From NCBI GenBank assembly GCA_017399685.1, contig JAFQBM010000001.1, positions 1 to 64,000 of the forward strand: a stretch of 64,000 nucleotides of DNA. Direction: 5' to 3'. The position numbers were made by a program, and so were the translations under genes. Origin of the DNA: Lachnospiraceae bacterium (GTDB lineage Bacteria; Bacillota; Clostridia; Lachnospirales; Lachnospiraceae). Under the pieces are notes generated by a model. That model searched no databases and was not told where the DNA came from. It was given only the letters and a program-made list of their open reading frames with translations. This document shows positions 22,160 through 40,953 of the stretch, piece by piece (the first letter of the stretch is position 1; every line of letters begins with the position of its first letter).

Positions 22160-23266
22160 CTATGAATACAAATTATTACTTTCATTCTTTAAGACTTTCT
22201 TTCGTTTCTTTTCCTGTTTATTTTCATACATATTAGCATCAGACTGTGAAAGTGCCTTTTCAAAATTCATGGCTGGCTCATAAGATACCATTCCCCATGC
22301 AATCTGATAAGGTGTTTTACTTAATTCCAGTTCCACCTGTTCTAATTTAGAAGCAACCAGTTCTTCCTTTACCTTAGGGCATACTATAACGAACTCATCT
22401 CCACCGATACGATAAAGCTTGCCCACATTGGCAAACACACTCTGTAATGTTTTAGCCACCGTAATAATCGCCAAATCTCCCTTGGCATGCCCTTGTGTAT
22501 CGTTGATTACTTTCAGGTCATTCATATCCACAGAAACAAGAACGGTAGCTATTTTTTCATACTCCTCGCAATCCATATAAAAAGTGTGACGATTCAGCGC
22601 CTGGGTAAGTGCATCCCTTGTATAGGTCTGAGTATGTAAAAATAAATAATAAAATACACTGGAAATTGCTCCTATTCCATTTAAAATAAATTTAAAGTGA
22701 AACAAGGATTCCATTCCTGTAGCAACCACAGACATAAAAACGATAAACACCATAATACTTCCTTCTTTTTTATAACCCAGCTGATATCGTTTAATCGACC
22801 AATATAACAAACAGCCAAGATATATTCCACTGATAATGAAAGGAAGTGCCCCTAAAGGACCTCTGTGAAACTCATTCTTTTCATCAAAATAGAACATCCA
22901 TTTTGTAAAAATACTGGTATATGCAATCACTGCATTTAAAACAAGAGGAACCGCTAAAATTTTATATTTTATCTTTTCTTCCCGTTTTAAGATGGTAGCA
23001 AGCAACATAATCGGTGTCGGTCTTAAAACATACCCCGTTGCGGAAGTCATATAACGTAACGCATGCGGTACTGTATCCTGGGCAAGATAATAATCGATAC
23101 TATCTGCCACAATCAAAATATTTACTGCTACTGCCACTGTCAAAAATGCCCGGTTAATCTCTTTTGGCATGGTACGGTTTGTCAGCAGAAAAATATATAA
23201 AAATATCACTATGGAAAAATCAATAAAATTCGTCTGTACTAAATAAAACGATATAGAAGTAGACAT
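22160..23266 (-). CDS. Membrane-anchored diguanylate cyclase (GGDEF)
   Basis: The 368-residue protein has about seven membrane helices in its first 215 residues, an integral-membrane sensor region of no recognised type. A complete GGDEF domain follows: DALTQALNRHTFY, then VDMNDLKVINDTQGHAKGD with metal-binding Asp, and RIGGDEF with the catalytic loop at 288-292. The RxxD product-inhibition site expected just before the loop is absent, so feedback inhibition is unlikely. It makes c-di-GMP. An HD-GYP gene lies 1.4 kb away and a c-di-GMP riboswitch 6 kb away, so this may be a local signalling group. Confidence 0.93.
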   Translation of the reverse strand: MSTSISFYLVQTNFIDFSIVIFLYIFLLTNRTMPKEINRAFLTVAVAVNILIVADSIDYYLAQDTVPHALRYMTSATGYVLRPTPIMLLATILKREEKIKYKILAVPLVLNAVIAYTSIFTKWMFYFDEKNEFHRGPLGALPFIISGIYLGCLLYWSIKRYQLGYKKEGSIMVFIVFMSVVATGMESLFHFKFILNGIGAISSVFYYLFLHTQTYTRDALTQALNRHTFYMDCEEYEKIATVLVSVDMNDLKVINDTQGHAKGDLAIITVAKTLQSVFANVGKLYRIGGDEFVIVCPKVKEELVASKLEQVELELSKTPYQIAWGMVSYEPAMNFEKALSQSDANMYENKQEKKRKKVLKNESNNLYS

Positions 23267-24621: not shown

Positions 24622-25686
24622 TTAAATACTCTCTACACTATCTACAATAAACAAAGACAGCTCCTTCATTAAATCCTTTAAGATATACTTATTATAAACT
24701 TCGCCCTGCTGATTCTTTATCAGACGAAGAAGTGGTCTTGCAGGATATCCCTTATTCTGTCTATGTACCATGGCAGTATCCCCTTCACTGGTTATCACAA
24801 TACTTCCGGTAGGATAAAGTGCCACAGAATCCATAAACGCCTTCACAACCTTTTCATCAAAGAGTTTACCACAATTACCTTGAATATATTCTATGGCTTC
24901 ATATACTCTGGAACGATCTGAAACTCCGAAAACCATGCCATCAAAAGTATCACATACTGCAACGATACGGCTTCCACGGTCAATATTGGTTCCAAATAAT
25001 CCGGAAGGATAACCGGAACCGTCAATCCGTTCATGATGATTTCTTACAATATCCAATACCAAATCGGAATACATGTCTTTCTTCCTTAAATGATCCAATC
25101 CGTAAAAAACATGATTCTTCACTACTTCTACCTTGCTGTTTCCTAAATCATCATCAAACTCATTTCGAAACACAGAAGGAACAAAAGTCATACCAATATC
25201 ATGCAGCAATGCTCCAATGGCATATTCCTTCACAGAATGTCTTGGAATACTTAATTTCAAAGCCACAATGGTAGATAATGCTGCAACATTAATAGCATGT
25301 TCATAGGCCGCATGATCACTGTTACGAATCTTATTCACATTAATGAACACTTCTTCCTGATTCATAACACTCTGTAAAATCTCTTCGGTAACTCTTCCTA
25401 TCTCTACATCTTCTGCCGAAGTCCCCTTGGTCTGGTTCTTCACAATATCTTTAATCAGATGGTAACATTCTTCCTTTACTTCCTCGTCTACCATCTCATC
25501 ATAATCCACGCCAACATATAATTCATCTTTAATCTGAATTTCCTCTATTCCCAAATCCAGAAAAGTCTGAATATAGTCTGTTTTTATTACCGTTCCATCC
25601 GGTATTAACATAACGCCATTACTATTAAAAATAGGTTTGGCCAGTATTTCTTTTCCTTGTATATTTCTGACCTTTATGGTCCTCAT
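24622..25686 (-). CDS. HD-GYP domain protein (putative c-di-GMP phosphodiesterase)
   Basis: The 354-residue protein has a ~110-residue N-terminal region and then an HD-GYP domain. HDIG lies in GALLHDIGMTFVP, and HHERIDGSGYPSGL supplies the GYP motif and metal-binding histidines. A short C-terminal beta region ends it. HD-GYP proteins commonly cleave c-di-GMP. It faces the same way as the diguanylate cyclase 1.4 kb downstream, with a tRNA and a repeat between them. I chose the ATG at 25686, seven bases after GGGAGGG, over one five codons earlier. Confidence 0.92.
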   Translation of the reverse strand: MRTIKVRNIQGKEILAKPIFNSNGVMLIPDGTVIKTDYIQTFLDLGIEEIQIKDELYVGVDYDEMVDEEVKEECYHLIKDIVKNQTKGTSAEDVEIGRVTEEILQSVMNQEEVFINVNKIRNSDHAAYEHAINVAALSTIVALKLSIPRHSVKEYAIGALLHDIGMTFVPSVFRNEFDDDLGNSKVEVVKNHVFYGLDHLRKKDMYSDLVLDIVRNHHERIDGSGYPSGLFGTNIDRGSRIVAVCDTFDGMVFGVSDRSRVYEAIEYIQGNCGKLFDEKVVKAFMDSVALYPTGSIVITSEGDTAMVHRQNKGYPARPLLRLIKNQQGEVYNKYILKDLMKELSLFIVDSVESI

Positions 25687-25854
25687 AAACGTCCCTCCCA
25701 TCTGCCGCTCTCGTAATGTCTGGTTATTTATTATTTTATCAAATTTTCTGAATTATACAAGTATTTCATATGTATAAATTACAACAGTTTTAGTAAAAAA
25801 CAGTTTGTTCTTTGAATAAATTGCCGATTCTTTCGTATTTTTATGGATTTATGA

Positions 25855-25883
25855 TTGACATAGCAATTAGAATCGTTTATAAT
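25855..25883 (+). promoter_or_regulatory. Strong promoter of adhE
   Basis: TTGACA and TATAAT are both perfect and spaced by 17 bases, 56 bases before the adhE start codon. Confidence 0.85.
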
Positions 25884-25894
25884 GTCATTAATAA

Positions 25895-25912
25895 TTGTTA
25901 AAAATTTATCAA
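25895..25912 (+). promoter_or_regulatory. Rex-type operator upstream of adhE
   Basis: TTGTTAAAAATTTATCAA matches the Rex operator pattern (TTGTTAA, four bases, TTAACAA) with one mismatch in the right arm. It lies just after the -10 box over the likely transcription start, where a bound Rex would block initiation until NADH rises. Rex control of adhE is well established in clostridia. Confidence 0.7.
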
Positions 25913-25938
25913 TTTCAAATTACAGGAGGAAACCCATT

Positions 25939-28563
25939 ATGTCAAAGACTGAAACTGCAGAAGTTAAAAACTTCGCAATCGTTGATAGCGCAGAATCTCT
26001 TGAAGCTAAAATCGCTGAAGTAAAAGAAGCTCAAAAGATTTTCGCTACCTACACTCAAGAACAAGTAGATAAGATTTTTAAAGCCGCAGCAATGGCTGCT
26101 AACAAGCAAAGAATTCCACTAGCTAAGATGGCTGTAGAAGAAACTGGCATGGGTATCGTAGAAGATAAGGTTATTAAGAATCACTACGCTGCAGAATACA
26201 TCTACAATGCATACAAGAACACTAAGACTTGTGGTGTAATTGAAGAAGATAAATCTTACGGAATTAAGAAAGTTGCTGAACCTATCGGTTTAGTTGGTGC
26301 TGTTATTCCTACTACAAACCCAACTTCAACTGCTATCTTCAAGACTTTAATTTCTTTAAAGACTAGAAACGGTATCATCATTTCCCCACATCCACGTGCT
26401 AAAAACAGCACAATTGCAGCTGCTAAAGTTGTTTTAGATGCTGCGGTAGAAGCTGGTGCACCAGCTGGTATCATTGGATGGATTGATGTTCCTTCTCTTG
26501 AACTTACAAATATGATTATGGCTGAATCAGACATCATCTTAGCTACTGGTGGTCCTGGTATGGTTAAGGCTGCTTACTCTTCAGGAACTCCTGCTTTAGG
26601 TGTAGGTGCTGGTAATACTCCTGTAATTATGGATGAATCTTGTGATGTTAGATTAGCTGTTAACTCTTTAATTCATTCTAAGACTTTCGATAACGGTATG
26701 ATTTGTGCTTCTGAACAATCTGTTATCGTTGACCAGAAGATTTACAAAGAAGTTAAGAAAGAATTCCAGGATAGAGGATGTTACTTCTGTAATCCAGAAG
26801 AAACTGAAAAGGTTAGAAAGACTATCCTTATCAATGGTGCTTTAAATGCAAAGATCGTTGGTCAAAAGCCTGTTACTATCGCTAAGTTAGCTGGATTTGA
26901 TATTCCTGCTGAAACTAAGGTATTAATCGGTGAAGTTGAATCTGTTGCATTAGAAGAAGAATTTGCACATGAAAAATTATCTCCAGTATTAGCAATGTAC
27001 AAATCAAAGGATTTCGATGATGCTCTTGCTAAAGCTGAAGTTTTAGTAGCTGATGGTGGTTACGGACATACTTCTTCTTTATATATTAACTTAGGAACCG
27101 GACAAGAAAAGATTGCTAAATTCCAGGCTGCTATGAAGACTTGTCGTATCCTTATCAATACTCCTTCTTCACAAGGTGGTATCGGTGACTTATATAACTT
27201 TAAGTTAGCTCCTTCTTTAACCTTAGGATGTGGTTCTTGGGGTGGAAACTCTGTTTCTGAAAACGTTGGTGTAAAACACTTAATCAATATTAAGACAGTA
27301 GCTGAAAGGAGAGAAAACATGCTTTGGTTTAGAGCACCTGAAAAGGTATACTTCAAGAAGGGCTGTCTTCCAGTAGCTCTTGATGAATTAGGAACTATTA
27401 TGAATAAGAAGAAAGCCTTCGTTGTAACTGACTCTTTCTTATATAAGAGTGGAGCAACTAAGTGCATTACTGATAAATTAGATGAAATGGGTATTCAACA
27501 TACTACATTCTTTGAAGTAGCTCCAGATCCAAACCTTGCTTCTGCAACTGCTGGTGCTAAGGCTATGAGAGCATTCGAACCAGACGTTATCATCGCTGTT
27601 GGTGGTGGTTCTGCAATGGATGCCGGTAAGATTATGTGGGTATTATATGAACATCCAGAAGTTGACTTCTTAGATATGGCTATGAGATTTATGGATATCC
27701 GTAAGAGAGTTTACACTTTCCCTAAGATGGGTGAAAAGGCATACTTTGTTGCTATCCCTACTTCTTCAGGTACTGGTTCAGAAGTTACTCCTTTCGCAGT
27801 TATCACTGACGAAAAGACTGGTCACAAGTATCCACTTGCTGATTACGAATTACTTCCTAACATGTCAATCATTGATGCTGACATGATGATGGGACAACCT
27901 AAGGGATTAACTTCCGCTTCAGGTATTGATGCTTTAACTCATGCATTAGAAGCATATGCTTCTATCATGGCAACTGATTACACAGATGGTTTAGCATTAA
28001 AAGCTATGAAGAACATCTTCGCATATTTACCAAATGCTTATAACTTAGGAGCAGAAGATCCAATCGCTCGTGAAAAGATGGCAGATGCTTCTACTATGGC
28101 TGGTATGGCATTCGCTAATGCATTCTTAGGTGTATGTCACTCTATGGCTCATAAGTTAGGTGCTTTCCACCACTTACCACACGGTGTTGCTAACGCATTA
28201 CTTATCACTGAAGTTATGAAGTTCAATGCTGCTCACGTTCCTACTAAGATGGGTACTTTCTCTCAATATCAATACCCACATGCATTCGAAAGATACGTTG
28301 AATGTGCTAACTTCTTAGGAATCGCTGGTAAGAATGACCAAGAAAAATTCGATAACCTTCTTAAAGCTATCGAAGATCTTAAGACTACTGTTGGTATTAA
28401 GAAGAGCATCGCTGAATACGGCGTAGATGAAAAGTACTTCTTAGACAACTTAGATGCAATGGTTGAACAAGCATTTGATGACCAATGTACAGGTGCAAAC
28501 CCTCGTTATCCATTAATGGAAGAAATGAAGGCTATGTACTTAAAGGTTTACTACGGAAAGTAA
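25939..28563 (+). CDS. adhE: Bifunctional acetaldehyde-CoA/alcohol dehydrogenase
   Basis: The 874-residue fermentation enzyme turns acetyl-CoA into ethanol while reoxidising two NADH. An aldehyde dehydrogenase domain (about 10-440) has the catalytic Cys256 in GMICASEQS. An iron-dependent alcohol dehydrogenase domain (about 455-870) has GGGSAMDAGK at 555-564 and the metal histidines in HSMAHKLGAFHHLPHG near 734-749. I chose the ATG at 25939 for its AGGAGGA. Codon choice is strikingly narrow (GCT for Ala, ACT for Thr, AAG for Lys), unlike the neighbours, as in very highly expressed genes. It runs toward oriC, against the replication fork. Confidence 0.97.
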   Translation: MSKTETAEVKNFAIVDSAESLEAKIAEVKEAQKIFATYTQEQVDKIFKAAAMAANKQRIPLAKMAVEETGMGIVEDKVIKNHYAAEYIYNAYKNTKTCGVIEEDKSYGIKKVAEPIGLVGAVIPTTNPTSTAIFKTLISLKTRNGIIISPHPRAKNSTIAAAKVVLDAAVEAGAPAGIIGWIDVPSLELTNMIMAESDIILATGGPGMVKAAYSSGTPALGVGAGNTPVIMDESCDVRLAVNSLIHSKTFDNGMICASEQSVIVDQKIYKEVKKEFQDRGCYFCNPEETEKVRKTILINGALNAKIVGQKPVTIAKLAGFDIPAETKVLIGEVESVALEEEFAHEKLSPVLAMYKSKDFDDALAKAEVLVADGGYGHTSSLYINLGTGQEKIAKFQAAMKTCRILINTPSSQGGIGDLYNFKLAPSLTLGCGSWGGNSVSENVGVKHLINIKTVAERRENMLWFRAPEKVYFKKGCLPVALDELGTIMNKKKAFVVTDSFLYKSGATKCITDKLDEMGIQHTTFFEVAPDPNLASATAGAKAMRAFEPDVIIAVGGGSAMDAGKIMWVLYEHPEVDFLDMAMRFMDIRKRVYTFPKMGEKAYFVAIPTSSGTGSEVTPFAVITDEKTGHKYPLADYELLPNMSIIDADMMMGQPKGLTSASGIDALTHALEAYASIMATDYTDGLALKAMKNIFAYLPNAYNLGAEDPIAREKMADASTMAGMAFANAFLGVCHSMAHKLGAFHHLPHGVANALLITEVMKFNAAHVPTKMGTFSQYQYPHAFERYVECANFLGIAGKNDQEKFDNLLKAIEDLKTTVGIKKSIAEYGVDEKYFLDNLDAMVEQAFDDQCTGANPRYPLMEEMKAMYLKVYYGK

Positions 28564-28772: not shown

Positions 28773-29249
28773 TTAGTTATGAACATGTTCTATATATTGA
28801 CTTTCAAATATCTTTTGATTTCTTGCAGAAACTTTTAACTCCATTCCATCTATATAAATCATTCCATTCCGATACTCATCTACCCATTCCATATTGATAA
28901 GATAACTCCTATTAATCCGGAAAAAATTTTTATATGCTATGTTACTTTCCAACTGCGTTAACGACGTTTCTTTTCGATATTTTCCATTTTCCGTTATTAC
29001 TTCTACATAGCTATCTATCGCTGTAATATATTTTACATTTGTTAAATCAATTTCATGTTTTTTTCGTCCTTTATATACCTCTATCCTTTCTGTAGCAAAA
29101 AAATCCATATATACTTTCTGTAATACTTCTTTCACTTCTTCTTTTGAGTAAAAAAATTCATCCTGTCTCTTTCTACCCACCTCATTCATGCACTCCTGAA
29201 TCAATACCACTAAAAAATTCATTGTCATAGTATTATACTCAAGCCTCAT
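28773..29249 (-). CDS. LytTR-domain DNA-binding regulator behind a c-di-GMP riboswitch
   Basis: The 158-residue protein has a helical N-terminal part and a C-terminal LytTR DNA-binding domain (about 70-155). Blocks that show it are YITAIDSYVEVITENGKYRKETSLTQLE and FFRINRSYLINMEWVDEY. No response-receiver domain is fused, so it is a one-component LytTR. I chose the ATG at 29249 for its GGGAGG; an upstream ATG would add 14 residues. A promoter, c-di-GMP-I aptamer and terminator precede it, so transcription probably depends on c-di-GMP. Possible LytTR-type direct repeats occur at 31114 and 35544. Similar regulators control bacteriocin and competence genes elsewhere. Confidence 0.88.
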   Translation of the reverse strand: MRLEYNTMTMNFLVVLIQECMNEVGRKRQDEFFYSKEEVKEVLQKVYMDFFATERIEVYKGRKKHEIDLTNVKYITAIDSYVEVITENGKYRKETSLTQLESNIAYKNFFRINRSYLINMEWVDEYRNGMIYIDGMELKVSARNQKIFESQYIEHVHN

Positions 29250-29331
29250 CTTAGGTACCTCCCTACTCTTTTGTTTTTCTCCATTCGTCATATTACCATA
29301 CTTTTCCCCAACTTCTTTGTCTATTTAAGAA

Positions 29332-29368
29332 CAAAAAAAAGCAATCAAAGTATGTTTCTTTGATTGCA
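29332..29368 (-). terminator. Intrinsic terminator of the c-di-GMP riboswitch
   Basis: GCAATCAAAG pairs perfectly with CTTTGATTGC, followed by eight T on the minus strand. Its first arm overlaps the 3' end of the aptamer (GGTTGC), as expected for a transcriptional switch. It lies between the aptamer and the LytTR gene. Confidence 0.85.
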
Positions 29369-29447
29369 ACCGAACTATCATAGCATTATGCCGTAGACTT
29401 CCAGCTTTGTGCCCCTATATTTCTATAAGTTTACCCTTGTCATACAA
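29365..29447 (-). ncRNA. Cyclic di-GMP-I (GEMM) riboswitch aptamer
   Basis: Minus-strand landmarks in order are GACAAGGGTAAAC, a GAAA-capped hairpin (ACTTATAGAAATATAGGG), GGGCACAAAGC, CTACGGC..., a second hairpin (GCATAATGC), and TAGTTCGGTTGC. This is the arrangement of GEMM-I, which senses c-di-GMP: AGGGYAAA, the GNNA tetraloop and its receptor side, CRCAAAGC, and the closing GGTTGC. It starts within a few bases of the promoter and runs straight into a terminator. Whether ligand turns the gene on or off needs structure calculation; the overlap of GGTTGC with the terminator arm would favour ligand-bound read-through. Confidence 0.82.
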
Positions 29448-29476
29448 ATTATACTATAATAGGTCTCATTTTTCAA
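29448..29476 (-). promoter_or_regulatory. Promoter of the riboswitch-LytTR transcript
   Basis: TTGAAA (29476-29471) and TATAAT (29453-29448) are spaced by 17 bases on the minus strand. The aptamer begins just after. Confidence 0.8.
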
Positions 29477-31067: not shown

Positions 31068-31230
31068 TTATCTCTTAAACTCTCATATGATAACACATTA
31101 CAATTTCAACCATAACTCCGTAAGCGTCGACTTAACTTCGTAAACGTAATACTATTGCAAGATTTCTGCCAACAAATATAAATATATACATATTAATCTA
31201 TGGCTTTTTTGCACAAATAACATCTTATTT
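31068..31230. repeat. Duplicated intergenic block, copy 1, with 20-bp direct repeats
   Basis: About 160 bases here match 35492-35660 at roughly 80-85% by eye. Inside, AACTCCGTAAGCGTCG (from 31114) is repeated 20 bases later as AACTTCGTAAACGTAA (from 31134). The 20-bp period, about two helical turns, is preserved in copy 2 and is the kind of spacing seen for tandem regulator sites such as LytTR boxes. Confidence 0.7.
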
Positions 31231-31531: not shown

Positions 31532-32188
31532 TTAATCAATAATTTTTCCATCTTCTATATGGATAACTCTCTTGCAACGATTTGCAATATTAATATCATG
31601 CGTAATTAATATTACCGTCTTTCCATTCTTATTAATTTCCTCGAAACATTTCATAATTTCATTTCCAGTATTCTGATCCAATGCCCCGGTAGGCTCGTCT
31701 GCCAGTAAAACTGGAGTATCTGCAGCCAATGCTCTGGCAATGGCACAACGTTGTTGTTGTCCACCGGATAAATGAGAAGGAATTTTATTTTTTAAATCAG
31801 CAATTCCCATTTTCTCAAGATAGTCCATTACAATTGATTTACGATGTTTTATATGTCTTGCAATTAAAGGCATTTCTACGTTTTCATAAACAGTATATTT
31901 ATCCATTAGGGCAAAGTTTTGAAATACAAAACTAATATTTTCTTTCCGGAATTCATGTAACTCTTTTAAATCACATGCAGTAATTTCCCTATCGTGAAAC
32001 ATATACTTTCCGGATGTTGCATAATCCATGGCACCTATAATATTAAGTAACGTAGATTTTCCAGAACCAGAAGTTCCCACGATTGCCACAAATTCTCCAT
32101 CCTGTATCGTTACATTGATTCCTCTTAACGCATGGGTAACCTGTTCCTTATTCGTATAATCTTTTGTTATATCTTTCAGTATAATCAT
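31532..32188 (-). CDS. ABC transporter ATP-binding protein (MacB/LolD type)
   Basis: The 218-residue ATPase has Walker A GTSGSGKST (about 38-46), Q-loop FVFQNFALMDKYTVYENV, signature LSGGQQQRCAIARALA, and Walker B VLLADEPTGALD. It belongs to the MacB/LolD/YknY group, which powers FtsX-like permeases and mechanically pushes substrates out rather than pumping through a pore. It is the last gene of the set secreted protein, permease, permease, ATPase. RBS is GAGAGG. The gap of 127 bases to the permease gene is longer than usual. Confidence 0.93.
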   Translation of the reverse strand: MIILKDITKDYTNKEQVTHALRGINVTIQDGEFVAIVGTSGSGKSTLLNIIGAMDYATSGKYMFHDREITACDLKELHEFRKENISFVFQNFALMDKYTVYENVEMPLIARHIKHRKSIVMDYLEKMGIADLKNKIPSHLSGGQQQRCAIARALAADTPVLLADEPTGALDQNTGNEIMKCFEEINKNGKTVILITHDINIANRCKRVIHIEDGKIID

Positions 32189-32315: not shown

Positions 32316-33566
32316 TCATACCACTTTATTCTGAATCAGTTTTACTGGTGTGAATCTCCTTAAAACAGTAACTGTTATCATCTGCATAATAACTACAATT
32401 ACGATTTCCACTGTAATTGCTATCGGAAATACATAATGTATCAATAATGTTTTTATCATGTAACTCATATCGTCCGTTGAAAACCGATACTTTGCAACCA
32501 ATACGCATAAAGGTGCTGTCAGAACAAGTGAGCTAACCGCTGTGATGATATGTTTCCAAAGCAACATTTTATTCACTTCCTTAGGAGAAAAACCAACTAC
32601 ATACATCACACCATAAGCTTTCGCATTCTCCAACATAGTTACTATCTGTGTGGTAATTATCATCAATAAAGAGGCTGCTATAACAATACCAAGCAGTTTT
32701 GCCAAATAAGATAACAGTAAATCAACATCTTCTTCATCCTGTTCATACATATTTGCTAATGTTTCATATGAAAAACTAATATCATATTTGTCTCCCACTT
32801 CTTTTGCTGCATCTATTGCTTGTTCTATCGTATATCCATCTTCTGCACTAATCCATAATCCCCCCGAATATACATCATAATTTCCTACCATAAATATTCC
32901 ATAGCTACAATCAACAGAACAATCCAAACGTTCAGAATTATATCCATTTTCCACATTAGAATCCACCCATCGCTGCTGTTCCTCCATTCTTCCTGCCACG
33001 ATAAATTTGGTTCCGTTTTTTTCTATAAATTCAGACCCTACTTCCACACTATCATAAGCTGCTCCAATATATAAATAAAACATTTTTTCAGATTCATCAA
33101 ATTCCAGTTTTTTAGGAGATATTCCTTCTTCCAGTTTAAGATCACACAAAAAGGCAGCACCCAGATTCATGCAATTTATTTCCAACAAACCGCCTTGTAA
33201 CGCTAATTCATAATCCTGCGTATGACCTTTTTGTATTTCATATAATTCTTCTAACGACTCATAATAACACCCATACTCCACCATATTTCCAACGGAGTAA
33301 ATTTCTTTTCTTTCATATGCCTCTTTAAAAAACGCTTTCACACCTTTCACATTCAAAAACGAATCTTCATCCAAACGTAAAATCGCCGTTCCCTCTATTC
33401 CTTTACTTAATATATCATCACAAGATATATAAGAATATTGTTTCCCTTTATAAATCATCACTGAAAACATAATTAGAAGAAGTGAAATCACCATAAGCAC
33501 TACTGTCAAAAGAAACTTTTTAAACTGCATTGCAATCATATCAAAAGCAAATCTTAATATCCTCAA
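32316..33566 (-). CDS. FtsX-like ABC permease, second copy
   Basis: The 416-residue permease has one N-terminal helix (about 14-38), a ~230-residue extracytoplasmic domain, and three C-terminal helices, the MacB/FtsX topology. The start is a TTG codon at 33566 behind GGGGGATG; no ATG fits. It begins 15 bases after the preceding permease gene and probably forms a heterodimer with it. The extracytoplasmic domain has the conserved-looking CSYGIFMVGNYDVYSGGLWISAEDG but no named family. Export of a peptide, or resistance to one, is the likely job. Confidence 0.85.
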   Translation of the reverse strand: MRILRFAFDMIAMQFKKFLLTVVLMVISLLLIMFSVMIYKGKQYSYISCDDILSKGIEGTAILRLDEDSFLNVKGVKAFFKEAYERKEIYSVGNMVEYGCYYESLEELYEIQKGHTQDYELALQGGLLEINCMNLGAAFLCDLKLEEGISPKKLEFDESEKMFYLYIGAAYDSVEVGSEFIEKNGTKFIVAGRMEEQQRWVDSNVENGYNSERLDCSVDCSYGIFMVGNYDVYSGGLWISAEDGYTIEQAIDAAKEVGDKYDISFSYETLANMYEQDEEDVDLLLSYLAKLLGIVIAASLLMIITTQIVTMLENAKAYGVMYVVGFSPKEVNKMLLWKHIITAVSSLVLTAPLCVLVAKYRFSTDDMSYMIKTLLIHYVFPIAITVEIVIVVIMQMITVTVLRRFTPVKLIQNKVV

Positions 33567-33581
33567 GCTAGCATCCCCCTT

Positions 33582-34715
33582 CTAATTTTCTGTCAATACG
33601 GATACCGGTGAAACCTTTTTTATATGCTGTATCATATGCAAAGCATTTAATATCGCAATTAATATCATTCCCATACATACAAATAGAATTTTCATAAACA
33701 TCTGTCCCGTAAAAACATCTCCTCCAACTATATTTATATAGAGCAATTGCACCAACTCTGCTAAAATACATGCCGGTATACAAAGCTTCATAATATCTTT
33801 CATCATCATTCCTGTTATTTGCAATGAGCTATATCCATATGCCTTGCGTATTGCCAATTCCTTTTTTCTGCTAATTATCCATAAATATGATACAGTGAAA
33901 CAATTAAAGATAGATAAAATCAAGCTAATTCCCATAAAGATAGAATTATAAAAACGATACCAGTAATTTTGATAATCACCATTATACTTTGCTTCTATTA
34001 TAATATTTCTAAATCCTATGGCTTCCATATCAGAAATAAATGTCTGATAGGATTTTGATATATCTGACTGGCTTCTATAATTAAATTTCAAAAGAATTCT
34101 GATTTCATTTGATATTATTCCACTCAAATATTCCTTTACCTGTTCATCGCAATTATCCCAAAAAATATATATGCTATGATCCACTCCACCTGCCATTTCA
34201 TTTTTCATAACTCCGATTACTTTCATGGTGTTTCCACCTATCTCTATGGTTTTTATACCATCTTTATCCCTTACTAATTCTATCAGGCTTTCTCCAATAA
34301 TAATTCCATTTTTTTCATTCACATTATAATCTGTGCCACAATCAATCCTCGCATCTTCATTTAACTGCATTACAACATTTGCTGTATAGGTATCTATTTT
34401 CTCAGCTACCTTTACCTTAAGTTCCAAATAAGTATTACCAACCGCCTCTTCTGATAACCTTGATACTACCATGTCAGCAAGTTGATCGGCTGCTGCCATC
34501 TGGTCTTCATAATTACTAAGCGCTTCTTCGCCATCCAGATAAGAATATGCTGAATACTTAAAACTATTTAACACATTGTTTTCTTTATTTATCTTTTCTA
34601 TTAAATCAGCAACATTAATTAATATAAAACAAGAAATCGTTAAACCTAATACAAACAATACGCTGGTTGCTGATTCCCTAAAAATCTTTTGTAAAAATCG
34701 CTTATATAAATTCAT
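33582..34715 (-). CDS. FtsX-like ABC permease, first copy
   Basis: The 377-residue permease has an N-terminal helix (about 13-35), an extracytoplasmic domain to about residue 245, and three C-terminal helices. The first of these is followed by ISRKKELAIRKAYGYSSLQITGMM, the cytoplasmic loop typical of FtsX/MacB permeases that contacts the ATPase. RBS is GAGG. A strong 18-bp hairpin lies between it and the preceding secreted-protein gene, so the two may be transcribed at different levels. Confidence 0.87.
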   Translation of the reverse strand: MNLYKRFLQKIFRESATSVLFVLGLTISCFILINVADLIEKINKENNVLNSFKYSAYSYLDGEEALSNYEDQMAAADQLADMVVSRLSEEAVGNTYLELKVKVAEKIDTYTANVVMQLNEDARIDCGTDYNVNEKNGIIIGESLIELVRDKDGIKTIEIGGNTMKVIGVMKNEMAGGVDHSIYIFWDNCDEQVKEYLSGIISNEIRILLKFNYRSQSDISKSYQTFISDMEAIGFRNIIIEAKYNGDYQNYWYRFYNSIFMGISLILSIFNCFTVSYLWIISRKKELAIRKAYGYSSLQITGMMMKDIMKLCIPACILAELVQLLYINIVGGDVFTGQMFMKILFVCMGMILIAILNALHMIQHIKKVSPVSVLTEN

Positions 34716-34790: not shown

Positions 34791-35216
34791 CTATGGATAC
34801 GATTTTACGGTTTCTGTCGTATCTACACAAAACATCGCTAATTTTCCATAAGACCCACCATAGCCACAACTTATCTTACTTCCTGAACGCATTCTGTGAC
34901 AATCATCAAGATATACTGGATTTAGTGAATTTTCATCAGTACCAGGAATTACATATACCATTTTGCCACCTGAATTTTCTGAAGGATCTGAACTATGAGG
35001 AATTGAACTTACATCTACTCCAGATATACTTGCACTGTACCATACTTTATCCGTAATCCAATATGGTCCTTCAACAAAATCAATATAACCATAGAGATTT
35101 ACATCTGAATATTTTGATGAAATTCTTTTACTGGCTGAAGCAAACACCGATGCCCCTCCTACTAATGTTGACATAATCATTATTATAGCTATAGCTACCA
35201 TTCTCTTCACTTTCAT
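34791..35216 (-). CDS. Small secreted protein of unknown function
   Basis: The 141-residue protein has a clear signal peptide (residues 1-27, KVKRMVAIAIIMIMSTLVGG and then ASVFASA). The mature part of ~114 residues is rich in Ser, Gly and Tyr and has three cysteines (in DDCHRMRSG, KISCGYGG and AMFCVDT). I recognise no family. RBS AAGGAG is strong. Its place directly ahead of a MacB-type exporter, and near a LytTR regulator, resembles secreted peptide or bacteriocin loci, but a signal-peptide substrate would not need the exporter. The exporter could instead give immunity. Function is open. Confidence 0.6.
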   Translation of the reverse strand: MKVKRMVAIAIIMIMSTLVGGASVFASASKRISSKYSDVNLYGYIDFVEGPYWITDKVWYSASISGVDVSSIPHSSDPSENSGGKMVYVIPGTDENSLNPVYLDDCHRMRSGSKISCGYGGSYGKLAMFCVDTTETVKSYP

Positions 35217-35309: not shown

Positions 35310-35338
35310 TTTACACTTATCCGAAAAAGTGATATACT
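35310..35338 (+). promoter_or_regulatory. Promoter of the putative antisense small RNA
   Basis: TTTACA (35310-35315) and TATACT (35333-35338) are spaced by 17 bases on the plus strand. The stretch downstream ends in a good terminator. Confidence 0.65.
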
Positions 35339-35344
35339 TTACCT

Positions 35345-35420
35345 AGGTACTTTTTCGTAAGTGCTATGAGTTTTGGGACTCTGATGGTTTTCGCAGACTT
35401 TATCAGAGTCCTCTTTTTAT
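35345..35420 (+). ncRNA. Candidate ~75-nt small RNA opposite the secreted-protein leader
   Basis: A plus-strand promoter leads into two hairpins. The first is GTACTT/AAGTGC around TTTCG. The second is a perfect 10-bp stem, GGACTCTGAT/ATCAGAGTCC, followed by TCTTTTTAT, a textbook terminator. No open frame of note lies within. It is transcribed against the direction of the secreted-protein gene. If that gene starts near 35445, the RNA would be fully complementary to its leader and could control it. Confidence 0.6.
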
Positions 35421-35491: not shown

Positions 35492-35660
35492 TTATCTCTT
35501 GGCCTCTCATATGGTAACACATTACAATTACTATTGCAACCATAACTCCGTGAACGTCGATTTAACTCCGTGAACGTAATACTATTACAAAAATTTCTTC
35601 CAATAAATATAAATTTATACATATTAATCTATATCTTTTTTACACAAACAACATCTTATT
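35492..35660. repeat. Duplicated intergenic block, copy 2, with 20-bp direct repeats
   Basis: It matches 31068-31230. The tandem units AACTCCGTGAACGTCG (from 35544) and AACTCCGTGAACGTAA (from 35564) are even closer to each other than in copy 1. A 10-base insertion near 35527-35537 is the main difference between the copies. Both copies sit in the same orientation relative to neighbouring genes. Confidence 0.7.
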
Positions 35661-40435: not shown

Positions 40436-40479
40436 TTTTCATTTATCCAAAACAATACTGTTGTAAAGAAATGACAAGC

Positions 40480-40501
40480 AACTGTTCACGCATGAACAGT
40501 T
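40480..40501. promoter_or_regulatory. Palindromic operator candidate ahead of the MIF-like gene
   Basis: The arms AACTGTTCA and TGAACAGTT surround CGCA and end exactly at a TATAAT (-10) box, so they would fill the promoter spacer. The same arms occur at 8279-8300. The position is typical for a repressor site. The regulator is unknown. Confidence 0.5.
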
Positions 40502-40608
40502 ATAATGATAAAATAAGTATTCCATTATTTTCAAATAAAGAATTGCAAAATAGTATAAAAAGAGATACAATAAAATTAGAAGAAGAAATATTTCAAAGGA
40601 GATTTAGC

Positions 40609-40953
40609 ATGCCATTTATTCAATCAAAAGTATCTGTTTCACTTACAGACACACAAAAGGACAACATAAAATCAAAACTAGGAAAAGCCATTTCTTTGAT
40701 TCCAGGCAAATCGGAACAATGGCTTATGGTAGAAATAAAAGATAACTGTTGTCTATATTTTCAAGGAAATCAGGATGCACCGACAGCATTTGTAGAAGTG
40801 AAAATATTTGGAAAGACATCTTCCCAAGTATATGATTCTCTTACAAATGAAATATGCAATATACTAAATTCCGAACTCTCTATCCCTAAAAATCGTATTT
40901 ATGTAAAATACGAAGAAGTAGCAAACTGGGGATGGAATGGAGGTAATTTCTAA
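40609..40953 (+). CDS. MIF/tautomerase superfamily protein
   Basis: The 114-residue protein starts MPFIQSKVSVSLTDTQKD. A proline right after the initiator Met is the catalytic residue of tautomerase-superfamily (MIF) proteins. Length and the block WLMVEIKDNCCLYFQG near residue 40 fit the MIF/D-dopachrome tautomerase branch, which forms trimers. Bacterial roles are unclear. I chose the ATG at 40609 because it follows AAAGGAG and exposes Pro2; a longer frame adds unrelated sequence. It is followed 18 bases later by the FliD-like gene. Confidence 0.85.
   Translation: MPFIQSKVSVSLTDTQKDNIKSKLGKAISLIPGKSEQWLMVEIKDNCCLYFQGNQDAPTAFVEVKIFGKTSSQVYDSLTNEICNILNSELSIPKNRIYVKYEEVANWGWNGGNF

Follow-up and report, generated by a model that had tools for sequence, protein, structure and literature searches.

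The locus lies on the minus strand of the window, by which we mean the whole stretch of 64,000 nucleotides that was analysed (on contig C41 of a 3.25-Mb genome). A promoter, an RF01051 aptamer, a terminator and a LytTR gene follow one another in that order on this strand, just as the initial annotation had described, and genes for an HD-GYP and a GGDEF protein lie nearby:

29448..29476, minus strand: sigma-70 promoter TTGAAA-17-TATAAT, 11/12 matches
29362..29445, minus strand: c-di-GMP-I (GEMM-I) aptamer, full RF01051 model 1-87, G20/A47/C92 conserved
29333..29367, minus strand: intrinsic terminator GCAATCAAAG-AAACATA-CTTTGATTGC-T8, whose 5' arm holds C92 and the P1 3' strand
29257..29263, minus strand: Shine-Dalgarno sequence GGGAGG for ATG 29249, from the sequence
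28773..29249, minus strand: LytTR DNA-binding regulator of 158 aa without receiver domain (Pfam LytTR)
24622..25701, minus strand: HD-GYP-type phosphodiesterase (Pfam HD_5, 8.8e-23; motif HHERxDGxGYPxGL)
22160..23266, minus strand: GGDEF protein without RxxD I-site (ANVG in place of the RxxD inhibition site)

The promoter ranks first among 10 promoter-like sites (11/12 matches against 9-10 for the rest), and its expected +1, at about 29441, falls at the 5' edge of the aptamer. In a covariance search the aptamer matches RF01051 at 65.4 bits (E 1.5e-10 over the window), 30 bits above the gathering score of 35 bits, so that the refuting outcome named in the initial annotation, a subthreshold score, did not occur. 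By this measure, the segment 29445-29362 on the minus strand is confirmed as a class-I c-di-GMP riboswitch. At the model columns matching the ligand-contact bases G20, A47 and C92 in Vc2 numbering, it carries G, A and C. G20 is the position tied to c-di-GMP recognition, and the three bases are as expected for an aptamer that would sense c-di-GMP rather than cGAMP. The terminator (29367-29341, a 10-bp stem plus T8) is the sole terminator-like site in 1.7 kb, with 0.1 such sites expected in shuffles. Its 5' arm GCAATCAAAG, which begins one position ahead of C92, includes the P1 3' strand and leaves P2 and P3 untouched.

The regulator gene likely starts at ATG 29249, behind GGGAGG (29263-29258), and not at the upstream ATG 29291. 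With the start at 29249, about 227 nt separate it from the promoter. The LytTR domain (PF04397) is recognized with a Pfam E of 3.2e-16, and a Pfam search of the protein for a Response_reg domain gave no match. The product is a LytTR DNA-binding protein and nothing more, without a sensing part, which qualifies its earlier description as a LytTR one-component regulator. A phmmer search found no PDB match, and a search for homologues in the genome_contigs collection found none. The most similar protein, with 40% identity over 125 aa, is a response regulator of the same genome, encoded on contig C33 beside an ABC exporter and a subtilase; the similarity covers its C-terminal part and starts behind its receiver. 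The closest homologues in 397 family genomes are open frames of ~220-300 aa, the size of full response regulators, and no riboswitch was found near them. The regulator thus resembles a derivative that has no receiver and whose amount the riboswitch would set. Among 74 riboswitches in 30 genomes, this is the sole case with a LytTR domain within 3 kb downstream, which bears out the view that such an arrangement is uncommon. No LytTR direct repeats (9-bp, 11-13 bp apart, 4-11 bp upstream of the -35) are recognisable at the gene's own promoter, and the membrane inhibitor gene that shares an operon with the LytTR gene in LytTR regulatory systems (LRS) is absent; the next gene is a convergent adhE (25882-28563, plus strand).

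The cyclase without inhibition site and the HD-GYP protein exist as the initial annotation reported. However, their proximity had also been offered as support for a circuit, and we dropped this argument because the genome contains 21 GGDEF genes in 3.25 Mb, one every 155 kb, which makes it weak evidence; the two genes are probably coincidental neighbours without a specific link to the riboswitch. Elsewhere in the window, a MIF (macrophage migration inhibitory factor) domain protein is encoded at 40471-40953 on the plus strand (Pfam E 2e-12), in a genome of gut Lachnospiraceae type.

About 6 kb from the LytTR gene lies a candidate target that the initial annotation had overlooked, an operon (35216-31532, minus strand) encoding a secreted 141-aa protein, two FtsX-type permeases and an ABC ATPase:

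35549..35577, minus strand: direct repeat ACGTTCACG-11-ACGTTCACG, with a longer exact repeat ACGTTCACGGAGTTA and a 20-bp period; candidate LytTR site
35511..35539, minus strand: promoter TTGCAA-17-TACCAT, 9 bp downstream of the repeat
35310..35416, minus strand: structured RNA leader with two hairpins, no Rfam match
34791..35216, minus strand: secreted 141-aa protein, bacteriocin-like by context only
33582..34715, minus strand: FtsX/MacB-type permease
32316..33566, minus strand: FtsX-type permease
31532..32188, minus strand: ABC transporter ATPase
31120..31147, minus strand: degenerate copy of the direct repeat, upstream of 30987-30352

Each half of the 35.5 kb repeat is 15 bp long. When intergenic regions were scanned for the consensus LytTR half-site, the matches were mostly AT-rich noise, and the GC-containing 35.5 kb repeat alone stood out. 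Good matches to this repeat number only three genome-wide: the 35.5 kb site itself, its degenerate 31147 copy, and a site on contig C25 that has the same geometry (11, 9 and 17 bp) and the same A-to-G change in both halves. The window and C25 leaders, neither of which has a riboswitch in cis, share a repeat whose 9-mers are separated by 11 bp and lie 9 bp upstream of TTGCAA, spacings that fall inside the ranges of LytTR-activated promoters, where 9-bp repeats are 11-13 bp apart and 4-11 bp upstream of the -35 (PMC6193735). Three other riboswitch-free leader loci (G008, L190 and L185) have near-perfect repeats of 20-21-bp period and other sequence. An extended -10 element, TGATATAAT, between repeat and leader could be a constitutive promoter. 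The 141-aa protein has no family match, and a lactococcin-972 identity was considered and set aside on the same ground. The secreted-protein/ABC operon is flanked by two ~210-aa membrane paralogues without Pfam match (36413-35784 and 30987-30352); the DNA flanking their genes is homologous and includes the direct repeat.

Downstream of both repeat promoters, at 35.5 kb and on C25, lies a leader of ~106 nt, and the third copy in the genome belongs to a bacteriocin operon on contig C14. Compensatory changes affect 11 of 29 leader pairs across 6 sequences and 13 of 23 when 17 are compared, and a comparison with Rfam 15 gave no match up to E 5. A covariance model found 18 copies in 11 of the 397 family genomes, and a pattern scan of named genomes added 10 loci, only in Lachnospiraceae/Clostridiales, many of them gut or rumen organisms and including Lactobacillus rogosae ATCC 27753, for a total of 28 Lachnospiraceae loci. 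Besides the window copy, the 18 include those at L138 3061-3166 and L139 6454-6560; viral contigs contained none. For most copies, the gene directly downstream encodes a double-glycine bacteriocin-like peptide or a small secreted protein, and at most loci the leader ends ~30-90 nt upstream of the start codon.

The leader keeps company with two kinds of regulator. Seven of the 18 copies found by the covariance model, in five genera, have a same-strand RF01051 riboswitch 69-555 nt upstream, and in five of these seven pairs no full-length gene intervenes; even at the highest riboswitch density seen, the chance of seven such pairs is ~1e-17. The added set contributes three more among its 10 loci, so that a c-di-GMP-I riboswitch lies just upstream at 10 of the 28. 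Half of the 18 leaders without a riboswitch in cis (9/18) have a same-strand LytTR gene within ~6.5 kb, more often than expected by chance, and in three of these nine (G362, G007 and L177) it lies within ~300 nt upstream. Riboswitch and LytTR gene do not occur together in cis at any of the 28 loci (Fisher p 0.01, whether or not the window locus is counted). The LytTRs linked to leaders belong to different lineages and therefore look like repeated recruitment. A phylogenetic link between the window LytTR and the leader-adjacent ones was sought and not found, the protein grouping instead with the C33 response regulator. Chaining of both inputs, from riboswitch to LytTR gene to repeat promoter to leader, was seen in the window alone.

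The genome contains nine c-di-GMP-I riboswitches, of which the window example is the one before a LytTR gene. The C14 riboswitch precedes a 152-aa gene, a leader, two double-glycine peptides and a C39 peptidase-ABC exporter; all parts of this cassette (L013/L139, 26.2-27.2 kb) point in one direction. On C61 the riboswitch precedes a secreted RHS/YD-repeat protein (L014 8670-12254), and on C20 a secreted 546-aa protein. Downstream of the riboswitches on C29 (three), C43 and C46 are arrays of small paralogous proteins (L010, L011 and L012), which have no family match and whose arrangement suggests an immunity-like role. A 1118-aa GGDEF-domain protein (L010 9966-13322) adjoins the three cassettes on C29. 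Among other genomes, G205 (L141) retains only remnants of the gene that separates riboswitch from leader, and tandem c-di-GMP-I aptamers, 44 nt apart, stand before one gene at L074 285-497 (G017:C3 47284-47496).

How might these elements work together? We propose, with a probability of roughly 0.6, that the riboswitch is an ON switch which raises a receiver-less LytTR regulator and, through it, turns on bacteriocin-like operons as c-di-GMP rises. The regulator would be controlled by its amount and not by phosphorylation; it would bind direct repeats of 9 bp that lie shortly before weak -35 boxes and activate leader-bearing bacteriocin-like operons, namely the one at 35.5-31.5 kb of the window and its relative on C25. 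Elsewhere in the genome, high c-di-GMP would switch on genes of interbacterial competition directly, namely the C14 bacteriocins, the RHS protein and the immunity-like cassettes, while in the window it would act on such genes through the LytTR relay. On balance, we also lean towards regarding the leader as a new cis-regulatory RNA class of Lachnospiraceae bacteriocin-like genes, with promoters connected alternatively to a LytTR activator or, in cis, to a c-di-GMP-I ON riboswitch. In this genome the two inputs would be fused into a relay through which c-di-GMP commands a competition regulon made up of bacteriocins, an RHS protein and immunity-like genes.

The alternative that survives best accepts the riboswitch and its ON direction and gives the LytTR protein other target genes; the leader operon would answer to another LytTR or another factor, and its proximity would be a coincidence. 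The genome has 21 LytTR genes, 20 besides the one in the window, and a different member of this set may bind the 35.5 kb repeat; in addition, the LytTRs linked to leaders come from several lineages, and the nearest paralogue, on C33, adjoins a different cluster of exporter and subtilase. We nevertheless consider this alternative unlikely. Two of the three good repeats of the genome are within 6.5 kb of the window LytTR gene, same-strand LytTR genes occur near riboswitch-free leaders above chance frequency, and the mutual exclusion of riboswitch and LytTR persists when the window is left out.

The direction of the switch is inferred from RNA anatomy. Because the 5' arm of the terminator takes C92 and the P1 3' strand, the complete terminator and the ligand-bound aptamer cannot form at the same time, which predicts a transcriptional ON switch. 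When c-di-GMP is scarce, the RNA beyond aptamer position 82 would fold into a terminator that takes C92. When the ligand is bound, C92 would pair with it, the terminator would lose its closing pairs and the LytTR gene would be transcribed. The ON switch pilM is arranged in the same way, its terminator capturing C75, the base that pairs with the ligand, and so excluding the aptamer (PMC9262584). Overlap of terminator and aptamer, often deeper, is also present at most of the genome's other riboswitches, namely C14, C29 (two), C46 and C61, and in other genera (G205, G235, G149, G009 and others), and at these overlaps the 3' arms of the terminators follow the changed 5' arms. The window switch could leak, as its terminator overlaps C92 and P1 only, not P3, and the predicted P1 is weak. 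An OFF switch, in which c-di-GMP binding promotes termination and lowers LytTR, has precedents among class-I riboswitches, for example Cd1 before flgB in C. difficile (PMC9262584, PMC8844915), but it seems improbable here: Cd1 lets aptamer and terminator form side by side and has a separate, competing antiterminator, whereas in the window C92 lies within the terminator 5' arm and no separate antiterminator is seen at the riboswitch. Very improbable is an aptamer that is degenerate or tuned differently, for instance to cGAMP, and does not sense c-di-GMP in the cell, since, although GEMM-I includes cGAMP variants and the window aptamer combines a C22-to-U change with its weak P1, the G20 position is G, 65.4 bits is a typical family score in the genomes examined and 21 GGDEF proteins are encoded in this one.

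The proposed ON relay resembles several known systems in part. In V. cholerae, the class-I riboswitch Vc2 lies in the 5' UTR of tfoY, a transcription factor gene for interbacterial killing by the T6SS (PMC4858559); there, however, control does not operate through a terminator, low c-di-GMP induces TfoY, the regulator belongs to another family, the host is Gram-negative and the T6SS takes the place of bacteriocin-like operons. In C. difficile, another Gram-positive gut anaerobe, c-di-GMP raises transcription of the DNA-binding regulators of cmrRST through the riboswitch Cdi-2-2 (PMC8844915), but the aptamer is class-II, the regulators are OmpR-family response regulators with a kinase, an invertible switch lies downstream and there is no bacteriocin link. 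The GEMM-I riboswitch of Geobacter pilM shares the ON direction and the terminator that takes the ligand-pairing C (PMC9262584), yet it responds to cGAMP and does not precede a LytTR regulator. The LytTR regulatory systems HdrRM and BrsRM of S. mutans likewise have a small LytTR lacking a receiver, bacteriocin gene targets and, a short way upstream of the -35, 9-bp direct repeats with 11-13 bp between them (PMC6193735). Unlike them, the window LytTR is followed by the convergent adhE instead of a membrane inhibitor gene, has no repeat at its own promoter and takes its input from a c-di-GMP riboswitch. Transcription factors under c-di-GMP riboswitches are thus already known from tfoY and cmrRST, while the LytTR/bacteriocin version and the leader appear new; none of the papers searched describes a c-di-GMP riboswitch on a LytTR gene or on bacteriocin-like operons, an absence that is no proof.

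What are the implications of such an arrangement? The LytTR relay, from RNA sensor to DNA-binding protein to promoter, needs three parts and could be reconstructed in a laboratory host, and the structured leader without Rfam match would represent a testable new RNA class. The second messenger c-di-GMP is usually tied to the decision between motile and sessile life. In commensal Lachnospiraceae of the gut and rumen, class-I riboswitches are repeatedly attached to bacteriocin-like operons, an RHS protein and immunity-like genes, which suggests that c-di-GMP also decides when these bacteria fight their neighbours.
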